Assembly: GCF_024832785.1 (NCBI RefSeq)
Contig: NZ_CP116615.1
Span: 2,852,001 to 2,916,000, forward strand
Length of the DNA: 64,000 bases
From: Fontisphaera persica
GTDB lineage: Bacteria; Verrucomicrobiota; Verrucomicrobiia; Limisphaerales; Fontisphaeraceae
Direction of reading: 5' to 3'
Made by a program: the position numbers and the translations under genes. Of the stretch, positions 7,298 to 22,536 are shown piece by piece; the first letter of the stretch is position 1; each line of letters starts with the position of its first letter. Under the pieces are notes generated by a model. It ran no database searches. It saw only the letters and a program-made list of their open reading frames with translations, and was not told the origin of the DNA.

Positions 7298-8341
7298 GTG
7301 GAAGCAACTTTTGGCAAGTCGCCAACCGTGCTTGAGCCGGCGCAGTCTGCGGCGGCCCAAGCCCCCCATGCTTCCCCCAAACAACACCGACGCGCATCCG
7401 AACGCGCCCCCAAAAAGAACGCCCCCGCGCCCGTTTCACCTTTCGCCGAGAACGACCGCACCATCGCGGAGATTCTGACCCAGTCTTCCATCTACCAGGA
7501 TTACGAGCGCGCCTTTGAGGAAATCACCGGCCTGCCCGTCAGCTTCAAGCCGCTGGAATCGTGGCAACTGCCGCATCACGGCAAACGCCACGAGCATCCC
7601 CTCTGCGCGATGATTGCGGAAAAAAGCCGCTCCTGCGCGGTGTGCCTTCAAATCCAGCAAAAACTTTCCGAGGCCGCCCAGACTGAGCCGCACACCCTTA
7701 CCTGCCCCATCGGCTTGACGGATACCGCCGTGCCCGTACGGCTGGGCGAGCGCCTCATCGGTTTTCTGCAAACAGGCCAGGTCTTTCGGAAAGCGCCGAC
7801 GGAGGCGCAACTGGACCGCACCGCGCGGCTGATTGCCGAGTGGGGCATCCACATTGACCGCGAAGAATTGCGGCATATTTATTTCAACACCAAACTCATT
7901 CCCCCCAAGCACTACGAAGCCATTGTCAAACTGCTCACCATCTTTGCGCAACATCTGGCCATCGTGAGCAACCAGATTCTCATGCAGCGCGCCAACGCGG
8001 AGCCGCCCGTCATCACCCGCGCCAAGGAATACATTCAGGCGCATCAGGCCGAGGACCTTTCACTCTCCATGGTGGCGCGGGCCGTGAACACCAGCAGCTT
8101 CTACTTCTGCAAAATGTTCAAGAAGGTCACCGGCTTGAACTTCACCGATTACGTCTCGCGCGTCCGCATCGAAAAAGCGAAAAATCTGCTCCTCAATCCC
8201 AACCTGCGCATCAGCGAAATCGCCTTCGAGGTGGGCTTTCAGTCCCTCACCCACTTCAACCGCGTCTTCAAGAAAATCACCGGCCACTCCCCCTCCGAAT
8301 ACCGCGCGCTCCTTCCGCACGCCGGCAAACTGGAAGGATGA
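7298..8341 (+). CDS. PocR-domain AraC-family transcriptional regulator
   Basis: 347 aa. After a basic, Ala/Pro-rich N-terminal stretch, residues about 55-220 are a PocR sensory domain with a cysteine cluster (HPLCAMIAEKSRSCAVC and a later Cys in LTCPIGLTD). Residues about 235-335 are an AraC double helix-turn-helix (LSLSMVARAVNTSSFYFCKMFKKVTG, then ISEIAFEVGFQSLTHFNRVFKK). PocR proteins respond to small carbon compounds such as 1,2-propanediol, but the ligand here is unknown. The start is uncertain: GTG at 7298 has no nearby Shine-Dalgarno, and a GTG at 7328 is an alternative. The gene borders the accessory island, but no target operon is evident. Confidence 0.88.
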   Translation: MEATFGKSPTVLEPAQSAAAQAPHASPKQHRRASERAPKKNAPAPVSPFAENDRTIAEILTQSSIYQDYERAFEEITGLPVSFKPLESWQLPHHGKRHEHPLCAMIAEKSRSCAVCLQIQQKLSEAAQTEPHTLTCPIGLTDTAVPVRLGERLIGFLQTGQVFRKAPTEAQLDRTARLIAEWGIHIDREELRHIYFNTKLIPPKHYEAIVKLLTIFAQHLAIVSNQILMQRANAEPPVITRAKEYIQAHQAEDLSLSMVARAVNTSSFYFCKMFKKVTGLNFTDYVSRVRIEKAKNLLLNPNLRISEIAFEVGFQSLTHFNRVFKKITGHSPSEYRALLPHAGKLEG

Positions 8342-8425
8342 CCCCCTGCCCCGGCTTCCTCGACCCAGTCCAAACCGCCCACCTCCAGGACAGGTGGAGT
8401 GATGAAAGCGGGAGAATAATCATGC

Positions 8426-8690
8426 CGTCCCGACGGGGCTTGTTCAGATTGGTCAGGCTGTTTCTATCAACATACCGCCCCGCTGGGACTGTTTCTTTCA
8501 GGGCTAGTGGCGGGTGGACAAATACCAGGCGCGATTGCCCAAGGCCGTTGCTGGGAACTCTAGGCCAGTCCCATAGGGACGAGTGCTAGTAACGACAGTG
8601 CCATACCGGTTAGAAGACTCCAGCCAGTCCCGTAGGGACGACCTGTTTATAGAAAACGGCCCTCTATATATTTTCCACTCCCATAGGGGC
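8426..8690. repeat. Cluster of short palindromic GTCCC-TA-GGGAC repeats
   Basis: Variants of AGTCCCATAGGGACG recur at about 8426, 8476, 8567, 8626 and 8677, spaced 50-90 bp, with no long conserved repeat between them. Each core is a near-perfect palindrome. The arrangement resembles REP-like scattered palindromes rather than a CRISPR array. Confidence 0.5.
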
Positions 8691-8697
8691 GACATAA

Positions 8698-9210
8698 AAG
8701 CAACTCCCCTCTCGCACCGGCAGAGGGTCAGGGTGAGGGGGCGTTTTCCCCCTTCGTTCCCTTCGTTTCCTTCTGTTCAAAATCCGTGTCCATCCGTGTT
8801 CACCAACCCCATCAGAGGAGAGAGAGCCAAGGTGCGGTTGTGTAGCGCAGGCGTCGGCCCCATGTAGCGCAGGCGTCCCGCCTGCGAGTTCACGGAGCCT
8901 CCCGGCTCCGTGTTTCCTAAACTCCCGAGGTCAAGCTGACGCACCTGTAAGAACCAGTCTGCCCGTCAAATTTTCTTGCGTCGTAGCGCAGGCGTCTCGC
9001 CTGCGGGTTCACGGAGCCTCCCGGCTCCGTGATTCCTGAATTGCCAAGGTCAAGCGGACGCACCAGTAAGCACCAGGCTGCAGTGATACAGCAGATGTCG
9101 TAGCGCAGACTTCCCTTCTGTAGCGCAGGCGTCCTCGCCTGCGAGTTCACGGAGCCTCCCGGCTCCGTGATTTCTGAGTTGCCAAGGTCAAGCGGACGCG
9201 CAGCGCCTGC
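8698..9210 (+). repeat. Left composite repeat border of Rhs island 1
   Basis: Three repeat families occur in forward orientation. C is a GAGAGGGTCAGGGTGAGGGG-like element (about 8710-8740). B is related to TTCGTTTCCTTCTGTT followed by a CCGTGTCCATCCGTGTTC-like stretch (about 8753-8800). A has three copies of GTAGCGCAGGCGTC...CCTGCGAGTTCACGGAGCC...GGCTCCGTG (8839-8910, 8983-9032, 9119-9171). Each A copy contains two internal hairpins. The same set in inverted order closes the island at 15.3-16.0 kb. Confidence 0.75.
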
Positions 9211-9779
9211 GTCCCGTCCCGCCAAGCGGGAGCGTCCCGCCGAAGTCAACTCCACCTGCGTCCACCCTCCTTCACCTAAGCCCTAAATCAAGTCTTCATT
9301 TTTTAATCCCCTTGTCGCCGCCACTAGCCCTCCAGGCGGCGGCAGCCACTGCGGCTGAAGGGTCCTCCTACTCGTCGTCCGCGTGACCAGCACGGCCAGC
9401 CCCAGCACCGAGTCTGCTTGTCGGCAGACAGGCCGCTCGCCTGGACCACCCCATTTACCCCGCGTCAAGAGCTATCGTCCACTATCGCGCCCCAAAAACC
9501 GCACCTTGTCATCTCGCCAAGAAGCGCTTCCGGGCGTTTCCAGATCATCGCCTGGCCAGGTGGCGTCCGGCAATGCAGCGCCAGGATCATGAGCGTCACA
9601 GTCGCCCTGACCGGGGCCAAACCGCAGCCCCTTCTGTGCCTGGCCAACGGCCAGGACGGGGCGGCAGGCTTGCCGCGTTATACATGGCGCAGGCTGGGGC
9701 CTTCGGAGCAGGATCAAGGCGGGAGCGCGGCTGACTTTCTTACACCATCTGTGCGGGACACCCGTTCCCCAAGTGCTCA
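9211..9779. other. Non-coding stretch inside Rhs island 1
   Basis: No supported gene. Open frames here have no recognisable domains and run through low-complexity, proline- or arginine-rich translations. It is probably degenerated accessory DNA between the repeat border and the first immunity candidate. Confidence 0.45.
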
Positions 9780-10085
9780 TTAGTCTCGGTGCCGTCTTAA
9801 GATGAACACCCACACCGGACTTGTGGCACACGCAAAGAGTATGCCCCAACAGACCAAGGCACCCACCACCATCTCGACCGGATTCTCTTTCGGATTCCAA
9901 TGCAGCCCGCATTGGCGTGCAAGTGCGCTGCACGGCCAGAGAAACACGTCACCCAGTTCAAGGCCAAGGAGAAAAGGCCAAATGGCTATCCCGAGAGACG
10001 CAAAACTGCAAAGCGCCAGAAAAACCCAAACGACGATCCGTTCGATGCTGACCAGCGTTCTTCCAATCGTTATCACAGACCCCAT
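9780..10085 (-). CDS. Small membrane protein, candidate immunity protein for Rhs module 1
   Basis: 101 aa from the ATG at 10085, 19 nt after the stop of the Rhs module encoded upstream on the same strand. It has three hydrophobic segments (WVFLALCSFASLGIAIWPFLL, a middle Trp/Leu-rich stretch, and VVGALVCWGILFACATSPVW) and ends RRHRD. No family is recognised. Position directly behind an Rhs C-terminal toxin is the usual place for the cognate immunity gene, and a membrane immunity protein would suit a toxin acting on phospholipids. The frame extends upstream to 10358, but that part overlaps the toxin gene. Confidence 0.5.
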   Translation of the reverse strand: MGSVITIGRTLVSIERIVVWVFLALCSFASLGIAIWPFLLGLELGDVFLWPCSALARQCGLHWNPKENPVEMVVGALVCWGILFACATSPVWVFILRRHRD

Positions 10086-10104
10086 CTCAGATACGCTTCT
10101 TGAA

Positions 10105-11162
10105 TCAGAATCGCCCACCACAATAGCACGCGCACTTGACAGCCCAGCGCTCCATGTTGGCCTTGAGTTTCGGTGTCGTGAACACGACGGCGGCTTGCTG
10201 CCGTGCATTGCCCTCAGCACCACCAGGTTCGCCACCCCCGTGCTCACCTGTATCTCCGAGGCCACCCCAGCTACTTGGAACAATCCGGCCACCTGTTCCA
10301 CCTGGATTCTCGGGCGACCCCGTGATTGGCGGTTGCGCTGTCCAGAGCGTATGATCATGCCCCGTGCGCGTGAGGACTACACTGTGGGCGTAGTAATCCT
10401 GCCAAGAGTGCATGAGCCGCCCCATCGCCTCAAGGGCCTTCTCACAGTCGTCGTTCGTCACCGGCCTCTTGCTCAAGGCACGGTCAAAATTCCTCTGCTC
10501 TACACCCAGATAGCTACTGTAAAGCCTGATAAAGCGGGCGGCTTGGCTCCCGACAGGTGTATCAATGTCCCTGTTGAAGTGCCTGAAGTTCTGTTTGAAT
10601 GCTATCCCGTCGTCTTGTGTTAAGTTCCAGTGAATCAGCCTGTCCAGCACTGTTTCCGCGCAAGGAAAGGACTTTAACGCCCCTGGAAAGGCCTGTTCAA
10701 AAGCCTGCCTTGTGAGCGAGGTGTGCCCACCCGACTTCCACAGCCCAAGAACATCCACCTTGTTCTGCGAGTCATTGCCACAAAACGCATAGACGTTCTG
10801 ACCACCTTTCTCCCCGATGGGGTCTCTGTTTGGCCACCTGCCGGTGGCGGGGGAGTAGTAGCGGTGGCCGTAATAAGAGAGGCCAGTTTCCCAATCGTGG
10901 TATTTGGTGGAGAAGAGATGGGTGAACGACTGCGCCAGGGGCCGGTGGCGCGGAGGAGCTCGCCAAAGGGGCCGTACTCATATTGCGCCACCCACACCCC
11001 ATCCGCCGCCCGCACGTACCCCATCACATTCCCATTGCCGTCATACACCGGCCAATACACCCACGCCCTCGGACCATTGTGAATCACCGTCGCCATCGCC
11101 TCAAGGGCACAACTTGCCTCCCCCACGGCTTCATCCCCCCGCATGGCTTCTGTCGCTTGCAT
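10105..11162 (-). pseudogene. Rhs C-terminal module 1 with HET-C/phospholipase-C-like toxin domain, frameshifted
   Basis: The 5' part (from about 11100) encodes Rhs core sequence ([32 protein letters not shown]). At 10938-10941 a run of four G replaces the five seen in the homologous module at 12.6 kb, and the frame shifts. After correction it continues as [17 protein letters not shown]...RDPIGEKGG and VDVLGLW, the standard Rhs cleavage region, then a unique tip of about 215 aa. The tip has [18 protein letters not shown] and [12 protein letters not shown], a His/Asp pattern like zinc-dependent phospholipase C/HET-C proteins. It is either inactivated, rescued by frameshifting, or a sequencing error. 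It has no complete Rhs body upstream. Confidence 0.7.
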
Positions 11163-11577
11163 CTTCAGGCTGACCCACCGCCAATATCCCCCAAAACCAC
11201 CCCCCCTTCAAGCCCCGTTTTCTCCCTCCCATCGGCGGGACGCCGATAGAACCCGCACGCGGGACGCGTGCGCTACCCGAGACCTTCAACCCCCGCACCC
11301 TCGCGTCACTGCGCCTCGGCATTTGGTGTTAGTTTTCCACGTAAAACGTCCCCCTTACTCACCCGCCGCCACGCCCCCTCTCGTGCCACTCTCCGCCACA
11401 ATCCCAAACAGCGGTACAAGGACTGTGGCACGCGCGCCTGCCTGTGCGTGTTGAACCTAAAAAAACGAACCTGCTCCCAACAGCCGCAGGATGCGGTGGG
11501 TGTCCAACTTTCCTCCCGCAAGGACTGAGTGCGATTGGTTTCCTATGCACCGTTGTTGCACAACACCGAGATCTATG
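11163..11577. other. Spacer between Rhs modules 1 and 2
   Basis: No gene is supported. The segment next to module 1 (about 11130-11235) resembles the leader upstream of module 3 (about 15190-15290), sharing CCAATATCCCCCAAAACCAC and flanking bases. The remainder holds a degenerate copy of the 'gcgggacgcgtgcgctac' repeat (about 11255-11280). Confidence 0.5.
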
Positions 11578-11874
11578 TCACTGAGTTCCGGCTAACCCAT
11601 TGCTCACAAGGAATACAGCTCCCAAAGCGAGTATCTCAATAGGGATAGCTAGGAGGGCTATCAGAAGAAGAACCAGCTTTCTCCCGAATGGAGCCCGCTG
11701 CATACCAACGCCGATAATGCATACGCCGAAACTTAACAGTGCAATAAGCCCACCACCCACGCCGAGATGGATCCCAGTCCGTTCAACAAGCGTCAAGACA
11801 CCCACAAGAAGAGCAGGACCGATCAGGCCAAGCACATACACAGCAGTTGCAATTTTAGTTCGCGATAAATCCAT
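11578..11874 (-). CDS. Small three-helix membrane protein, candidate immunity protein for Rhs module 2
   Basis: 98 aa from MDLSRTK (ATG at 11874), overlapping the Rhs module 2 stop by 20 nt; an alternative start is at 11922. Three hydrophobic helices (ATAVYVLGLIGPALLVGVLTL; GGLIALLSFGVCIIGVG; LVLLLIALLAIPIEILALGAVFL) are separated by short polar loops. No family is recognised. Tight overlap with the toxin gene and small size fit an immunity protein. A membrane immunity protein suggests, but does not prove, a membrane-acting or membrane-crossing toxin. Confidence 0.55.
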   Translation of the reverse strand: MDLSRTKIATAVYVLGLIGPALLVGVLTLVERTGIHLGVGGGLIALLSFGVCIIGVGMQRAPFGRKLVLLLIALLAIPIEILALGAVFLVSNGLAGTQ

Positions 11875-13243
11875 CTTTGCACCCTTTATGATGAAATTCT
11901 TTCCACCCACATTGAGCAACATTCTGTGCAGCCCAAACCAAGATCGTTTTCATCTCGGCTGTGGGCTGTCTACCGCCTAAAAACCAAGTTGGATCGAAGT
12001 CGTATTTGTCAAAGATACACGCTTCCCAAGTCAGAGTCCGGCAAGCGCAGGATGTGGTCAAGTTGATGGTAACTCGCCCAATTGAAGCAGACCATGGATT
12101 TCCAATCGAATCCCCGACTTGTGTCGTTCGGTTAAACCAATAAAACGGGTTTGTCTTGCAGTCTTGCGCTTGCTTTTTTAATTCAGCTTGGAAGGCTGGC
12201 GCTGCTGCCAATACCGTCCCCATCTCAGACTCCGTCAGTTCAATATCATTCGCCGTGCCACTAACGAACCTATTCCACGCTCGAATGTCCTCCGCGGTAT
12301 TCAGATAGCCTCGAATTTTCCCCTCCAACCAGGTGCAAAGCCCTTTGTGAATGTCCGGCAGCGGATTCTTGAAGCTAGGCAAAGCCACCGCCAACGTGGT
12401 TCCACAGGAACCGGCGCAAAGCCCAACTGGATCGAAAAGGTTAATTGTATCGTTTGCAACGCAAGCGTACAGGTTGTTCCCTCCCAACTCCCCGATGGGA
12501 TCTCTGCTCAGCCAGCGGCCTTGGGCGGGGGAGTAGTAGCGGTGGCCGTAGTAGTTGAGGCTGGTTTCCCAGTCGTGGTATTTGGTGGAGAAGAGGTGGT
12601 GGAACGCCTGCGCCAGGGGGCCGGTGGCGCGGAGGAGTTCGCCAAAGGGGCCGTACTCGTATTGTGCCACCCACACCCCATCCGCCGCCCGCACGTACCC
12701 CATCACGTTCCCATTCCCGTCATACGCCGGAAAATACGTTCCCGCATTCGTCCCGCTGTGCACCACCACCGCCAAAAGACCCCCCACGCCCCCCGCCCCC
12801 TGCGGCGTGCCCGACACGTCCACACCCCACACGTGCGTGCGCACCTCGCCCGTCACTTCTTCGACTTCGGCGATCATGTTCCACCCATCATACACATATC
12901 TCCACCGGCTTTGCAACTGCCATGCCGTCCCCACCTTATTCGACACCACCTTGCTCACCCGCCGCCCCAACCAGTCATACCCAAACCGCAACTCCAGGTT
13001 CGGCGCGCCCAAATTCACCGGCGTGCTGCTCATGTACATCCGCGCCAAGCGGTTCTCCGCATCCCACCGGTACGCCCACCAGCCGTCCGAAAACAAATTT
13101 CCTTCCACGTACGTCCCCACCCCCAGCACCCACGCCGGGCGCATCCGCACCTCCCGCGTGTACGTCTCCGAATGCCCACCGGGGTTTGTTTTTACGGCCA
13201 CATTCGTCACCGCCAGCCACACCGGCCCGCTCCCGTTGGCCAC
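11855..13243 (-). CDS. Rhs C-terminal module 2 with unknown toxin-like tip, 5'-truncated
   Basis: 462 aa. Residues 1-270 are YD-repeat/Rhs core ([90 protein letters not shown]) ending at the conserved NLFDPVGL junction. The last about 185 residues are unique: cysteine-containing, with FVSGTANDIELTESEM and a terminal YDFDP...GWKEFHHKG region. A similar YDF motif occurs at the end of several uncharacterised Rhs/contact-toxin tips (from memory). The GTG start at 13243 has no upstream Rhs body, secretion signal or VgrG-type domain, so this is an orphan module fed by recombination or a degraded gene. Confidence 0.75.
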   Translation of the reverse strand: MANGSGPVWLAVTNVAVKTNPGGHSETYTREVRMRPAWVLGVGTYVEGNLFSDGWWAYRWDAENRLARMYMSSTPVNLGAPNLELRFGYDWLGRRVSKVVSNKVGTAWQLQSRWRYVYDGWNMIAEVEEVTGEVRTHVWGVDVSGTPQGAGGVGGLLAVVVHSGTNAGTYFPAYDGNGNVMGYVRAADGVWVAQYEYGPFGELLRATGPLAQAFHHLFSTKYHDWETSLNYYGHRYYSPAQGRWLSRDPIGELGGNNLYACVANDTINLFDPVGLCAGSCGTTLAVALPSFKNPLPDIHKGLCTWLEGKIRGYLNTAEDIRAWNRFVSGTANDIELTESEMGTVLAAAPAFQAELKKQAQDCKTNPFYWFNRTTQVGDSIGNPWSASIGRVTINLTTSCACRTLTWEACIFDKYDFDPTWFLGGRQPTAEMKTILVWAAQNVAQCGWKEFHHKGCKDGFIAN

Positions 13244-13360
13244 CGCCAGTGCCGCATATTATTCATTTCGCTAACCGGCAATGCAAATCGTCTTACTCTA
13301 ACTTTGCGTCGCCCGGTTCGCCTTCACTGCCGCTAGGGCAGCATCGTCATCCTCCAAGCC

Positions 13361-13951
13361 TTACATACATCCTAAAATAAAAAAACCTTTACGCCGGTAA
13401 AGTCGGCGGAGATCCATGAACTCTGTCTTACTGTACTCCATTCCGAAATGGGCCTGATTGTACTCCAATATCAGGGTAATTTCCTCCGTCGTAAAATCGG
13501 ACCCTTCCACGCGCTTAACAAACACGATGTCCGATGCGACCGTTAGCAGCGCAAGTGTCCGCGTTTGGCCCAGTTCAAGGAGCAAGCCTTGAGCAATACG
13601 GCGAACTTCTGCAGACAGAGGGCAAATCTTTGGACTGGGAAAACCAAAGGTCTCAAGCAAACCTAGTGACTGTTCATAGGAACATTTAGGCAGATACCAG
13701 AAATCTGCGGTCAGGGAAGCAAGTTTGTACCCTGTAATCCCCCCTGTATTAACGATCTCTTCGACTATGTGAGCGTCATGCAAATGACGGACTAAAACTG
13801 CTTGTTCTCTGATCAACGATATTAAGTGTTCTTCGATAAACGGATGATCGATGTTCACATCACCACTGGCCCGACGGCGGTAAGCCTTCACCATACCATC
13901 TCCCAGTTTGAGAAAGCATGCCTTCCACTCGTGATCAATCGTAAAGGACAT
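13361..13951 (-). CDS. Hypothetical protein, candidate immunity protein for Rhs module 3
   Basis: 196 aa from ATG 13951 (preceded by GAG; a TTG start at 13966 is possible), 29 nt after the Rhs module 3 stop. The protein is predicted soluble, mixed alpha/beta, with no signal or membrane segment; features include ADFWYLPKCSYEQSLGLLETFG and a C-terminal basic patch LRRLYRRKG. No family is recognised. It sits in the immunity position behind a predicted nuclease toxin, which fits a cytoplasmic, soluble inhibitor. Codon use looks lower in GC than the flagellar genes, consistent with transfer. Confidence 0.6.
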   Translation of the reverse strand: MSFTIDHEWKACFLKLGDGMVKAYRRRASGDVNIDHPFIEEHLISLIREQAVLVRHLHDAHIVEEIVNTGGITGYKLASLTADFWYLPKCSYEQSLGLLETFGFPSPKICPLSAEVRRIAQGLLLELGQTRTLALLTVASDIVFVKRVEGSDFTTEEITLILEYNQAHFGMEYSKTEFMDLRRLYRRKGFFILGCM

Positions 13952-13980
13952 AATTATCTCATGCAACCGTTGGAGCTAAC

Positions 13981-15255
13981 TCAAGGGCGGAATTGATAGT
14001 AGGGAGCATATTGGGGCGCATTCTGGCTATATCCAACGAAACCAAATCGCTGCTGGAAAAAGATCGAGTAAGAAAGTTTACACTTTAGAGCCACTCTTTG
14101 TTGCCGGCCGAATTGTTGAAGGTCTCTGCTGAATATTTTGTTCATCACATACGTCCACTCGGGACGTTTGACCGTTCCCGCCCACCGCCGGCCAGTTTTT
14201 GCTTCGTAGGCGGCGGTAACGGGTCCTGGAAAGGTTGATCCGGCATCATACCTTGCTGTCTCTCCATCTGGAGCTATGACAATCAATTCGTAGTTCGGCT
14301 GAAACAACCGGCTGATATAAGCATGGTGAGCGGCATTTCCGCCAAGTCCTGCGGCGTCCCAAATGAATTTGCAGCACGTTTTGGGGTTTAGACTCTCCGC
14401 CACTTTGGCGTACGCTCGCGGCTCTTTGCGTTGGTTTTCCTGCAACTCCTTGAGCAGTTGCTCCTGTTCCTGAATCATCACCTCTGCTTGGGCGTTTTGC
14501 TGGTCAATTTTGTGAATTTCGTAAACCTGATATGCAGCCAATCCGGCCACCGCGACACCGGCCACCCACACGCCACCTGCAACGAGTGCTCCGCCTGCGC
14601 CAACCGCTGCCGCGCTTCCGCCGCCTGCCGTTATTGTAAGCGTAACTCCGGCCCCTCCAGAAGACGCAGTTCCCAGTGTGGTTCCAAGGACAACGGATTC
14701 GACAAGGACTCTTCCGTCGGCATCAATGTGGGTAATTGGGCGATTATAAACAAAGCCATACAGATTTACCCCACCGTTCTCCTCAATCAAATCTCTGCTC
14801 AGCCACCGGCCGGCGGTGGAGGAGTAGTAGCGGTGGCCGTAGTAAGAGAGGCCGGTTTCCCAGTCAAAGTATTTGGTGGAGAAGAGGTGATTGAAGTCCT
14901 TGGCCAGGGGGCCGGTGGCACGAAGAAGTTCACCAAACGGGCCGTATTCGTATTGCGCCACCACGCCACCGTCAGAGGCCCGCACGTATCCCGTTACATT
15001 CCCATTCCCGTCATACACCGGAAAATACACCCCCGCATCCGGGCCGTTGTGAATCACCGTCGCCACCAAACCACCCACACCCCCCGCACCGTGCGTCGTC
15101 CCCGACAAATCCACCCCCCACACGTGCGTGCGCACCTCGCCCCTTGGCCCATACACTTCGGGACAATTCTTCTCCTCCACGATTGCCCACCCGCCTATGG
15201 CTTCATTCACCTGCATCTTGTGGCTGACCTCGCACCCAATATCCCCCAAAACCAC
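13981..15255 (-). CDS. Rhs C-terminal module 3 with predicted PD-(D/E)XK nuclease tip
   Basis: 424 aa from a GTG at 15255 (an ATG at 15216 is an alternative). Residues 39-180 are Rhs core ([56 protein letters not shown]) ending at the HIDADG junction. Then come an Ala/Gly-rich hydrophobic stretch (about 195-242, possibly membrane-traversing), a short coiled coil (about 250-280), and a tip with YDAG...AAYEAKTGRRW. Asp337, Glu351 and Lys353 form a PD-(D/E)XK restriction-endonuclease-like arrangement, as in Tox-REase toxins. The first 35 residues are unrelated to Rhs and come from the shared leader sequence. Confidence 0.75.
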   Translation of the reverse strand: MVLGDIGCEVSHKMQVNEAIGGWAIVEEKNCPEVYGPRGEVRTHVWGVDLSGTTHGAGGVGGLVATVIHNGPDAGVYFPVYDGNGNVTGYVRASDGGVVAQYEYGPFGELLRATGPLAKDFNHLFSTKYFDWETGLSYYGHRYYSSTAGRWLSRDLIEENGGVNLYGFVYNRPITHIDADGRVLVESVVLGTTLGTASSGGAGVTLTITAGGGSAAAVGAGGALVAGGVWVAGVAVAGLAAYQVYEIHKIDQQNAQAEVMIQEQEQLLKELQENQRKEPRAYAKVAESLNPKTCCKFIWDAAGLGGNAAHHAYISRLFQPNYELIVIAPDGETARYDAGSTFPGPVTAAYEAKTGRRWAGTVKRPEWTYVMNKIFSRDLQQFGRQQRVALKCKLSYSIFFQQRFGFVGYSQNAPQYAPYYQFRP

Positions 15256-15327
15256 CTCCCCTTCAAGCCCTCATTCGCCCCCAAATCGGCTTTTGGCTTG
15301 CCTCACCTAGGCCATAGGAGCGGTGTC

Positions 15328-16020
15328 GTAGCGTAGGCGTCCCGTCCCGCACAGCGGGATACCGCCTGCGTCTCGCAGGCTTATTCCAACCTTACGATGC
15401 GTGCTCACCTTCGTTACTGCACAGGAAAGATTGACGCGAGGCCTAGTGCTTCCCAGCGCGTCTGTTTGACTTCGGCAGTTCTGCAATCACGGAGCCGGGA
15501 GGCTCCGTGAACCCGCAGGCGAGGACGCCTGCGCTACACACCCTCACCTTAGCCTTTTACAACGATGGAGTGGAGGGAAAAGGGGGCAGAAATGGTGAAG
15601 GGGAAACACCAACCACGAATGAACACGAATGGACACAAATTTAAACAGAAGGAAACAAAGGGAACGAAGGGTGGAAACCGCCCCCTCACCCTGGCCCTCT
15701 CCCCGGGGGGAGAGGGAAATACATCAAGTTCTGTCACAGACTTTGACCACCCTCACCCTAGCCCTCTTCCAATGGGAGAGGGAGGAATTGTAGCTGCGCG
15801 GATTATCCTGCGCTGGCCATGGATCTCCCCATGGCCTGCGGGACGCGGGCCGAATCCCGCTGTGCGGGACGGGACGCCTGAGTTACGGCACAGGAAAGAT
15901 TGGCGCGCGATTTGGTGTTTCCAAGCGATTCCTCTTTACGTCGGCAGTTCTGCAATCACGGAGCCGGGAGGCTCCGTGAACCCGCAGGCGAGACGCCTGC
16001 GCTACGGACGGGGACGCCTG
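15328..16020 (-). repeat. Right composite repeat border of Rhs island 1 (inverted)
   Basis: The families of the left border reappear in reverse orientation: A copies at 15487-15538 and 15956-16010 (ATCACGGAGCCGGGAGGCTC...GCAGGCG), a degenerate A at 15328-15390, B at about 15608-15672 (ACCACGAATGAACACGAATG and AACAGAAGGAAAC), and C at about 15685-15716 and 15750-15785. No gene of its own is supported between 15256 and 16123. Inverted orientation relative to 8.7-9.2 kb gives the island terminal-inverted-repeat-like borders. Confidence 0.75.
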
Positions 16021-16123
16021 CGTTAGGTGCTTGGTGGTGAAAAAGGGGGATGATTCCGCTGGCTTGGACAGCCGATGTCCACCCCTGGCTGGCATGCTGG
16101 GGGCAAATGCAAATGGAAGCCCT

Positions 16124-16342
16124 ATGACCAAAAAAGAGCGGTTCATGACTTTCGTTTTTCTGGGGGCCATTGCCCGAGACCTTTCCCGCGGCACGCGCGA
16201 CTCGCAATTGATTGCGCTTCAGGCCGACCAAATCCCGGAAACAGACATCCCCTTGAATCCCTGGAATGCCGCCAAGGTGTTTCTGGCGTATGTGGATGGC
16301 CGCACGGCGGCGCACCGCTGGATGCGCATCCCGCAGGACTGA
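16124..16342 (+). CDS. Small hypothetical protein
   Basis: 72 aa starting MTKKERF at 16124, preceded by GGAAG at good Shine-Dalgarno spacing. The protein has no signal or clear membrane segment and includes FLGAIARDLSRGTRDSQLIALQAD and ends WMRIPQD. No family is recognised. It is the first gene after the island border and may be co-transcribed with the oxidoreductase 75 nt downstream. The longer frame from 16031 lacks a ribosome-binding site. Confidence 0.5.
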   Translation: MTKKERFMTFVFLGAIARDLSRGTRDSQLIALQADQIPETDIPLNPWNAAKVFLAYVDGRTAAHRWMRIPQD

Positions 16343-16416
16343 AGTCGAGGGACGGCAAGGTGCGGCTCCATGGTTCACAGTGTGCCGGGTTGAAATTGAG
16401 CGTGGCCCACGTCATA

Positions 16417-17790
16417 ATGAGGCGCGTGCATCCGCAGATTCAGGCCTGGACGCGGCGGCGTTTCCTGCAACGTGCCTTGTGGGGAGGGGGTGCGTTGTGC
16501 CTGGCGGCGGGGCCGAACTTGCTGGCTTCCTCGCGGGAGCGGCAACGGTTGCGGGTGGCGGTCATTGGCTGTGGCGGGGCGGGGACGGGATGCGTGGGGG
16601 TGGCGGCCATGGAGCGGCTCGTTGCGCTGGTGGACGTGGACGAGCGCAAGCTGGCCGCCGCCTGGCGGGCTGCGTCCAGTCATGGGCAGCAACCGCGCGT
16701 CTTTCGGGATTACCGGCGCATGCTCGAAATTTGCGGGGAGGAGTTGGAGGCGGTGTTCATTGCCACGCCGGACCATCATCACGCGCCGGCGGCCTCGCGT
16801 TGCCTGGCCCTGGGGAAGGCGGTGTTTGTGGAGAAACCGCTGGCGCACAATATCGCTGAGGCGCGGGCCTTGCGGCGGGCGGCGCGGCGGGCGATGGTGC
16901 CCACCCAGATGGGCAATCAAGGCCACAGCAGCGAGGGTTACCGGCTTTTGTGCGAGCATATATGGGCGGGCGCCATTGGGGAGGTGCGGGAAACGCACAG
17001 TCTCTTGGAGCGCGAACCAGCGGCGGAGAGTGCCGGCGACATGGCCGCATCTGCGCCGCCGTGGTTGGAGTGGGATTTGTGGCTGGGGCCGGCCGCCGAG
17101 CGGCCCTATCGGCCGGGCTTGCATCCCGCGGGCTGGCGGATGGCGGTGGATTTTGGCACGGGGGTCTTGGGGGACATGGGATGTCACGTATTGGACGGGG
17201 TGTTTTGGGCGTTCAAATTGTGGCAGGTGGAGCGTTACACCGTGGAATGCCTGGCGCAAACGCCCGCTGCTTCGCCGGAGGCGCATCCACGCCATAATGT
17301 AATTTGCTGGCGCATTCCGGAGCGCGCCGATTTTCCCGCGCTGACGGTTTATGCTTATGACAGCGTCTGGCCGCCTAAAATTCGCGAGCTGGAGCGGCGC
17401 CTGGGCGAAAAACTGCGCGGGGGCACGGTGTATTGGGGGGACAAGGGCGTCATGTTCACCGGCCCGCAGGGGGAAGGCCCGCGTTTTTTGCCGTCCAGCG
17501 AGCAGGATGCTTTTCCCAAACCCCCAAAGAAAATTGAGCGTCCGGGCAAGAATGGGTACCGCGAGTTTTTGGATGCGTGCCGTGGCCACCCTCCGGCCAG
17601 CTCTAATTTTGAAATGGCCGGGCCGCTGACGGAGTTTGTGTTGACCGGGGTGCTGGCGAGCCGGGCAGGAGTGGGGCAGGCCTTGGCGTGGGACAGTACG
17701 CGGCTGACGGTGGCGGGGCGGGCGGATTTGCAGCCGCTGGTGCGGCGCAGTTATCGAGCGGGCTGGGAGGTGGAGGGAGTGCGGGGATGA
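16417..17790 (+). CDS. Gfo/Idh/MocA-family oxidoreductase with Tat signal
   Basis: 457 aa from ATG 16417. A twin-arginine signal TRRRFLQRALWGGGALCLAAG occupies about residues 11-31 and suggests export of the folded cofactor-bound enzyme. A Rossmann motif follows (RVAVIGCGGAGTGCVG), then EAVFIATPDHHHAPAA and VFVEKPLAHNIAEA with the EKP catalytic lysine of the Gfo/Idh/MocA family, and GVLGDMGCHVLDG. These enzymes oxidise or epimerise sugars and inositols with tightly bound NAD(P). Exported paralogues are abundant in Planctomycetes and Verrucomicrobia. The substrate is unknown. Its stop overlaps the MFS gene start (ATGA), indicating an operon. Confidence 0.9.
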   Translation: MRRVHPQIQAWTRRRFLQRALWGGGALCLAAGPNLLASSRERQRLRVAVIGCGGAGTGCVGVAAMERLVALVDVDERKLAAAWRAASSHGQQPRVFRDYRRMLEICGEELEAVFIATPDHHHAPAASRCLALGKAVFVEKPLAHNIAEARALRRAARRAMVPTQMGNQGHSSEGYRLLCEHIWAGAIGEVRETHSLLEREPAAESAGDMAASAPPWLEWDLWLGPAAERPYRPGLHPAGWRMAVDFGTGVLGDMGCHVLDGVFWAFKLWQVERYTVECLAQTPAASPEAHPRHNVICWRIPERADFPALTVYAYDSVWPPKIRELERRLGEKLRGGTVYWGDKGVMFTGPQGEGPRFLPSSEQDAFPKPPKKIERPGKNGYREFLDACRGHPPASSNFEMAGPLTEFVLTGVLASRAGVGQALAWDSTRLTVAGRADLQPLVRRSYRAGWEVEGVRG

Positions 17791-22290: not shown

Positions 22291-22536
22291 TTAATTCAAA
22301 CCAAACCGTAACTCCAGGTTCGGTGCGCCCAAATTCACCGGCGTGCTGCTCATGTACATCCGCGCCAGCCGGTTCTCCGCATCCCACCGGTACGCCCACC
22401 AGCCGTCCGAAAACAAGTTTCCTTCTACATACAACCCCACCCCCAGCACCCACGCCGGACGCATCCTCCCCTCTCGCGTGTGAGCCTTCGACTTCCCACC
22501 AAGGCCTGCCTTTACCGCTACATTCGTCACTGGCAA
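22291..22536 (-). pseudogene. Rhs core remnant
   Basis: About 75 codons (VTNVAVKAG..., MRPAWVLGVGLYVEGNLFSD, WWAYRWDAENRLARMYM, NLELRFG) match residues 13-86 of Rhs module 2, with roughly 94 percent DNA identity over 22311-22470 against 12985-13145. It lacks the junction, toxin tip and 5' body and ends in a stop after FGLN. It is clearly a fragment, enclosed by inverted repeat borders like the intact modules. Confidence 0.8.

Follow-up and report, generated by a model that had tools for sequence, protein, structure and literature searches.

The usual explanation for orphan Rhs cassettes, in which the truncated end of an Rhs core carries a toxin tip and is followed by an immunity gene, is that they serve a main gene as spare parts. 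The orphan rhs-CT/rhsI modules of the Enterobacteriaceae, as described in the available parts of three papers (PMC3150448, PMC3967940, PMC2935791), have a truncated core, a variable tip and an adjacent immunity gene; they occur in arrays, with up to eleven modules in some Salmonella, and undergo recombinational exchange. Here we analysed three cassettes of this kind on the minus strand of a 64,000-nt window of the Fontisphaera persica genome (G000; one contig of 4.73 Mb, 97% complete). The window covers positions 2852001-2916000 of the contig, and coordinates are positions in the window unless stated otherwise. The G000 cassettes are alike in all of the above features. They differ from the enterobacterial modules in that no main gene was found for them, they are also dispersed through the genome, and many of them have a leader and an ATG. 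We put it at about even that they are orphan toxin/immunity cassettes that may be kept without a body by selection on the toxin/immunity pair.

Repertoires that consist of orphans only are already known, and the G000 set is a variant of these. The genomes of Gilliamella apicola likewise encode no Rhs toxin domains other than orphans, to which immunity genes are linked, and the authors propose a defensive strategy (PMC8125069). G. apicola has a type VI secretion system (T6SS) and tips in common with S. alvi, whereas G000 has no match to the T6SS sheath protein VipB and the full-length Rhs proteins of its order look Sec-exported. A Salmonella orphan described as a type II toxin-antitoxin system (PMC7043789, partial text) is likewise a body-less toxin with linked immunity. 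In that case tests covered an internal promoter and a CTG start, and a main rhs is present, whereas internal expression is only proposed for the G000 cassettes. Polymorphic toxin cassettes (PMC3482391, also partial text, which mentions an Rhs toxin of the verrucomicrobium Pedosphaera parvula) likewise form arrays with adjacent immunity genes, at a median of one active toxin per three cassettes, compared with about 30 core places and no full-length gene found in G000. Among the open-access papers that our searches listed, none has a title dealing with body-less Rhs proteins of this order as a family, an absence of little weight. The question raised is why cassettes are kept when no carrier protein to deliver them was found. 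In the two genomes of this genus, core places number about 30 in one and about 20 in the other, and a main gene was found in neither. This makes protection against neighbours, internal toxin-antitoxin function and decay testable, and cross-species toxin/immunity pairs allow selection to be measured in a group on which we found little Rhs literature.

Three cassettes and the linkage of tips to small genes

The three Rhs C-terminal modules were found at the positions given in an earlier note on this DNA, and they share a core with nucleotide and protein similarity far above chance. In DNA comparisons, a 158-nt core segment of module 1 was 86% identical to module 2 and 82% identical to module 3, and the adjoining 155 nt were 81% and 77% identical, respectively. 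The proteins of modules 3 and 2 matched with an E value of 3e-67, and core divergence among the three was 14-23%. As the earlier note had stated, the tips are mutually unrelated (no blastp match at E 1e-3 with the first 42 residues of each removed), a small gene follows or overlaps every tip (Table 1), and a full Rhs body is absent from all three modules. As in orphan modules with a truncated core, TIGR03696 scored above its cut-off in all three modules, in module 1 within the frame that contains the tip. The copy profile of the window shows a boundary between constant and variable DNA, in keeping with a conserved junction ahead of the variable tip; the tip and small-gene segments had no further DNA match in the fetched G000 stretches, and core and leader had up to 28. 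Module 1 had been given as one span (10105-11162), but it is not a single reading frame: its core changes frame, with YDGNGNV and ATGP in the frame 10674-11162 and GHRYYS...GRW and the tip in a separate one. This break is probably real rather than an assembly error, because the window holds an ordinary share of long homopolymers (runs of at least six C/G or at least seven A/T). Module 2 has no 5' leader, unlike modules 1 and 3.

In G000 as a whole, the core has 57 protein matches. Its DNA matches merge into 30 places in the fetched stretches: 19 in one 43-kb minus-strand array (~2081.5-2125 kb), three in the window and eight dispersed. Three of the 30 places measure just 57-104 nt. One additional weak core match was found beyond the 30 places. 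The sister genome G001, of the same genus, is fragmented and has many modules at contig ends; 16 of its 21 core matches are on open frames of 306-383 aa, and contig-end copies may be counted twice in these figures. Named records contain 45 loci with related cores, mainly from metagenome-assembled genomes of Verrucomicrobia, Limisphaerales included.

To characterise the tips, we searched 293 genomes. Tip 1 has relatives in seven other genomes, on open frames of 313-692 aa, and among seven aligned members of its family VWA7_N was matched in six (best E 0.0008) and Zn_dep_PLPC in one (E 0.0024), with member 1 scoring under the curated cut-off. Two functional readings, zinc ligands in tip 1 on the model of phospholipase C and a nuclease in tip 3 from ExK seen by eye, were set aside since no significant match supports them. 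The relative of tip 2 in G050, a genome of another family, is 90% identical across 183/183 residues, and that in G118 is 37% identical. Tip 3 has a relative in one other genome, G169, where it is 49% identical and forms the C-terminal end of a 2041-aa open Rhs frame; tips 1 and 2 were found on short frames only. Searches of Pfam and NCBIfam with tips 2 and 3 returned nothing outside the Rhs part, and NCBIfam searches with 10 further tips returned the Rhs core only. Profile searches of solved structures with tips 1 and 3 gave nothing usable, and a single-sequence structure prediction of tip 1 (mean pLDDT 41) was not used. Three of the 21 tips collected in G000 are related to one another.

Tip and small gene remain linked across genomes. 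The homologue of probable immunity gene 2 in G050 is 60% identical, adjoins the tip 2 homologue and has the same overlap with it. Probable immunity gene 3 has a distant relative (25% identical over a 122-aa stretch, E 5e-6) directly downstream of the tip 3 homologue in G169. No relatives of immunity gene 1 were found beside the tip 1 relatives, and a longer frame over this gene (9783-10358) had no Pfam or NCBIfam match. For a broader sample, 38 tips were collected and the 11 in a low-quality stretch described below were excluded, leaving 10 from G000 and 17 from G001. An ATG frame of at least 60 aa starts between -45 and +130 nt from the tip stop in all 27; the background is 46% for random positions and 50% for a set of 346 stops. 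A hydrophobic segment or lipobox-like start was counted, crudely, in 18 of the 27 small proteins. The DNA common to the window and G050 is 972 nt long and 80% identical; it starts at the core junction (window 12543) and ends shortly beyond the immunity stop (11573). From such single cases, the sequences suggest that cassettes may be exchanged as a unit from core junction through immunity stop. The shared tip 2 unit, the occurrence of tip 3 on a 2041-aa Rhs frame and the set of about 30 places support the earlier proposal that these are displaced Rhs toxin/immunity cassettes.

The ratio of nonsynonymous to synonymous changes (dN/dS) was computed for both genes in two cross-genome pairs. Compared with G050, dN/dS was 0.10 for tip 2 (Fisher p 2e-19) and 0.16 for its immunity gene (Fisher p 1e-12). 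Both genes are under purifying selection, and the pair is conserved at the protein level. In the second pair, the dispersed module at 2567 kb (L057) and G001 L137, the immunity gene had a dN/dS of 2.48 (Fisher p 0.007, with no clean genome-wide control), and a frame check placed its changes at codon positions as 29/26/16. This single pair suggests that the immunity gene changes faster than neutral. Two cross-species control genes (dN/dS 1.73 and 1.25) were discarded, as they look read in wrong frames.

Search for an Rhs body and for an export route

The earlier note had proposed a storage array, with the Rhs body expressed at another place in the genome. As query we used a 900-aa Rhs body of G002, a genome of the same family as G000. 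It returned five fragments in G000, all within residues 634-900 and all in the large array, and no match in G001. The note had named the absence of any full-length Rhs with a matching core as a result that would refute its proposal; the search found no full-length Rhs in G000, and no main rhs gene with the same core was found upstream of the modules in G000 or G001. TEN_YD-shell gave no matches in G000, a weak test in that only 1 of 14 control genomes was positive, below the cut-off. The combination of a signal peptide and a YD-repeat shell that marks full-length Sec-type Rhs toxins was not found. The single long RHS_repeat candidate was rejected because it is one repeat match within an unrelated type of open frame, 10,034 codons long. 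This frame (G000:C1:1732212-1762313; L055, L056) has LEPRVLLSAD near its start and, by eye, probably encodes a giant surface protein.

Full-length body matches were found in four other genomes of the order: G002 (the query source, with other copies), G169, G023 and G046. Of five full-length frames read, four (two in G002, one each in G169 and G023) have, by eye, a signal-peptide-like sequence at their start, and the G046 frame has none. VipB had no match in G000, so these cassettes do not qualify as T6SS-delivered effectors. It was matched in 3 of 58 genomes overall, including the sister genome (G001:C17:94545-95462), and the T6SS is therefore not a common factor of the cassettes.

These results divide the storage proposal. 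Its displaced cassettes are supported, and its expressed body is not, the search having found pieces of residues 634-900 only. The cassette anatomy, the unit in common with G050 and the full-length Rhs of G169 that carries a tip 3 relative are all as expected if a silent array supplied an expressed full-length Rhs elsewhere in G000. The body was, however, found in neither genome of the genus, and the three cores differ by the 14-23% given above, compared with the identical cores within an E. coli locus reported by Jackson et al. (PMC2935791, as far as the available text goes). We regard silent storage as quite improbable. In its place the likeliest account, though unproven, is that the cassettes are retained for immunity or as internal toxin-antitoxin pairs.

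The large array lies in a stretch of ~97 kb with sharp edges (G000:C1:2030050-2127009; L048-L051, L171, L172) that looks like unpolished long-read sequence. It contains one long homopolymer where about 61 were expected from the 148 in 236 kb of other fetched stretches. Open frames of at least 250 aa cover 0.60 and 0.31 of its non-Rhs parts, compared with 0.97 and 0.88 beside the stretch and 0.65 to 0.85 in pieces of the window. One array tip differs from its G001 relative by one-base gaps within otherwise 87% identical DNA, which fits assembly error. Because the surrounding 97 kb are nearly devoid of long homopolymers, the frameshifts in the array are probably assembly errors; phase variation and programmed frameshifting were rejected on the same scarcity and on the few long non-Rhs frames. 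The frames of the large array were excluded as evidence, and the window and the dispersed modules lie outside the low-quality stretch. Directly to the left of this patch, a 6,809-codon open frame lies within G000:C1:2006001-2030000 (L170, L171).

The assembly bears on a further explanation, that the cassettes are neutral, decaying relics of a lost Rhs gene. No body was found in two genomes of the genus, module 1 is frame-broken, the G001 copy L133 runs into a stop after 25 codons, the window has an isolated Rhs fragment at 22291-22536, and the tip in one computed pair has a dN/dS of 0.73, all of which would be expected of relics. Most of the apparent decay, however, is in the 97-kb stretch and is probably an assembly problem; tip 2 and its immunity gene are under purifying selection between families, and the small downstream frame is kept at every one of the 27 tips examined. 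We consider neutral decay unlikely.

Leader, chassis and reasons for retention

The leader has 19 matches in the fetched G000 stretches, and a homologous leader is present in G001. An ATG follows it in modules 1 and 3 and in five of the eight dispersed modules; module 2 has none, and no signal peptide was seen by eye. Orphan modules usually, though not always, are without signals for starting translation and for export. The frame is open from the ATG in 6 of 7 leader-bearing G000 modules outside the low-quality stretch and at 14 of 15 G001 starts. Nine of these 14 reach a stop after the tip and five run off the contig, with some contig ends maybe counted twice. The chassis ahead of the GRW junction is 121 aa long in all nine complete G001 copies and 136-142 aa in six G000 copies, and by eye no further N-terminal domain was seen in these 121-142 aa. 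An ungapped count in G001 gave 48 variable sites of 60 in the leader, a figure inflated by a one-base difference in leader length, and 63 of 228 in the core; strong leader conservation was not shown by this count. Pairwise differences fall on codon position 3 in 53% of cases in the G001 core, 59% in G000 array copies and 42% in eight in-frame G000 copies. In the first 33 codons in G001 the share is 42%, with variable sites by position of 11/12/16. This modest codon-position bias means that protein-level constraint on the chassis is modest.

Five dispersed modules (L057-L061) have the YDGNGNV part replaced by a stretch that resembles the interspersed repeats, and their frame is still open. The upstream DNA of several G001 modules (L128, L130, L131, L135, L139, L141) contains a short TTTGCA-type repeat that varies in copy number.

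One tentative view is that a 'mini-Rhs' chassis replaced the delivery protein in this genus, as a multicopy gene start with its own leader, an ATG, a fixed-length remnant and varied payloads. The chassis could then be a platform for translation and recombination rather than a shell, since in five dispersed copies an interspersed repeat replaces the YDGNGNV part in frame, and the immunity genes could be in an arms race; we hold this view as a whole to be possible but doubtful.

The same features would fit internally expressed toxin-antitoxin modules, in which leader, ATG and short chassis would make a stand-alone toxin gene and the immunity protein would be the antitoxin, for addiction or growth control. 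The leader stands ahead of modules in both species, the frames are open from the ATG in the proportions given above, and the Salmonella type II orphan (PMC7043789, in the part available) is a precedent. On the other side, promoter and terminator scans were at chance level, with 3 promoter-like sites compared with 2.5 expected (window 9300-15600). There is little codon-position bias, both in the first 33 codons and in the eight G000 copies; module 2 has neither leader nor ATG, and module 1 is frame-broken. The 18 small proteins with a hydrophobic segment or lipobox-like start also fit toxins that act outside the cytoplasm. From the sequences, we judge internal toxin-antitoxin function to be possible, with the balance clearly on the other side.

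We therefore return to selection on the toxin/immunity pair without a body. On this view, each cassette keeps the last part of the core as a short Rhs remnant, to which one of many unrelated toxin tips is joined, with a probable immunity gene next to it. The tips are presumably not exported, because no body was found, no signal peptide was seen by eye and G000 has no T6SS sheath gene. The cassettes may be kept mainly since their immunity genes would protect against relatives in which such tips are still part of full-length Rhs proteins that look Sec-exported. The linked toxins, if produced inside the cell, would make loss of the immunity gene costly, and the cassettes might still recombine with an incoming Rhs body.

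Several points weigh against this explanation. The frames open from the ATG are easier to reconcile with expression of the toxin than with a role in immunity alone. Completeness is about 97% for both genomes and G001 is fragmented, which limits the body search, and the frame errors in the 97-kb stretch reduce its sensitivity there. Of 20 tips scanned with Pfam, three exceed a cut-off: two from G001, with an RNase A CdiA-CT domain and DUF6973, and that of the 3109-kb module, with an M35-like metallopeptidase. None of the three window tips exceeds one. The right edge of the unit shared with G050 is firm, and the left edge is backed by 49 nt; it is weak because the G050 contig starts 186 nt ahead of the tip. 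The signal of positive selection comes from one of the two pairs computed, and in that same pair (2567 kb and L137) the tip ratio of 0.73 is not different from 1, with DNA 93% identical.

Features, flanks and minor observations

Table 1. Features of the three cassettes and their flanks, in window coordinates. Hydrophobic segments are from a crude count.
Feature	Coordinates	Strand	Remarks
Left flank: interspersed repeats, not array-specific	8700..9250	.	at least 52 genome matches of one unit, itself included (40 of 90 candidates scored); copy profile
Probable immunity gene 1: 101 aa, three hydrophobic segments	9780..10085	-	ATG 19 nt past tip 1 stop
Tip 1: HSWQDYYAH and GEH...EP motifs, frame differs from module 1 core	10105..10731	-	weak similarity to zinc-dependent phospholipase C
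Chassis of module 1: ATG, short N-terminus, Rhs core to ATGP, then out of frame with tip	10674..11162	-	
Conserved leader, module 1	11143..11236	-	one of 19 leader matches in fetched G000 stretches
Probable immunity gene 2: 98 aa, three hydrophobic segments, overlaps tip 2 end	11578..11874	-	starts at -20 nt; G050 homologue
Tip 2: domain of unknown kind	11855..12406	-	relatives in two others of the 293 genomes
Truncated Rhs body and core, module 2, leaderless	12407..13243	-	whole frame: TIGR03696 E 6e-20, RHS_repeat E 4e-5
Probable immunity gene 3: 196 aa, no hydrophobic segment	13361..13951	-	ATG 29 nt past tip 3
Module 3: in-frame chassis (from MQVNEAIG) and tip 3, 411 aa	13981..15216	-	TIGR03696 E 7e-19 on longer frame
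Conserved leader, module 3	15197..15290	-	35 nt, 97% identity to module 1 leader
Right flank: same repeat kind, inverted	15319..16005	.	DNA comparison, copy profile

The inverted repeats that flank the cassettes were considered as the boundary of a mobile element, and this was ruled out since they are interspersed repeats with the genome matches listed in Table 1. A search of Rfam at the gathering threshold over window 8000-16500 gave no match, and neither did a defence-system library searched with six proteins. The lone Rhs body fragment at 22291-22536 is 82% identical to part of module 2 and lies among interspersed repeats.

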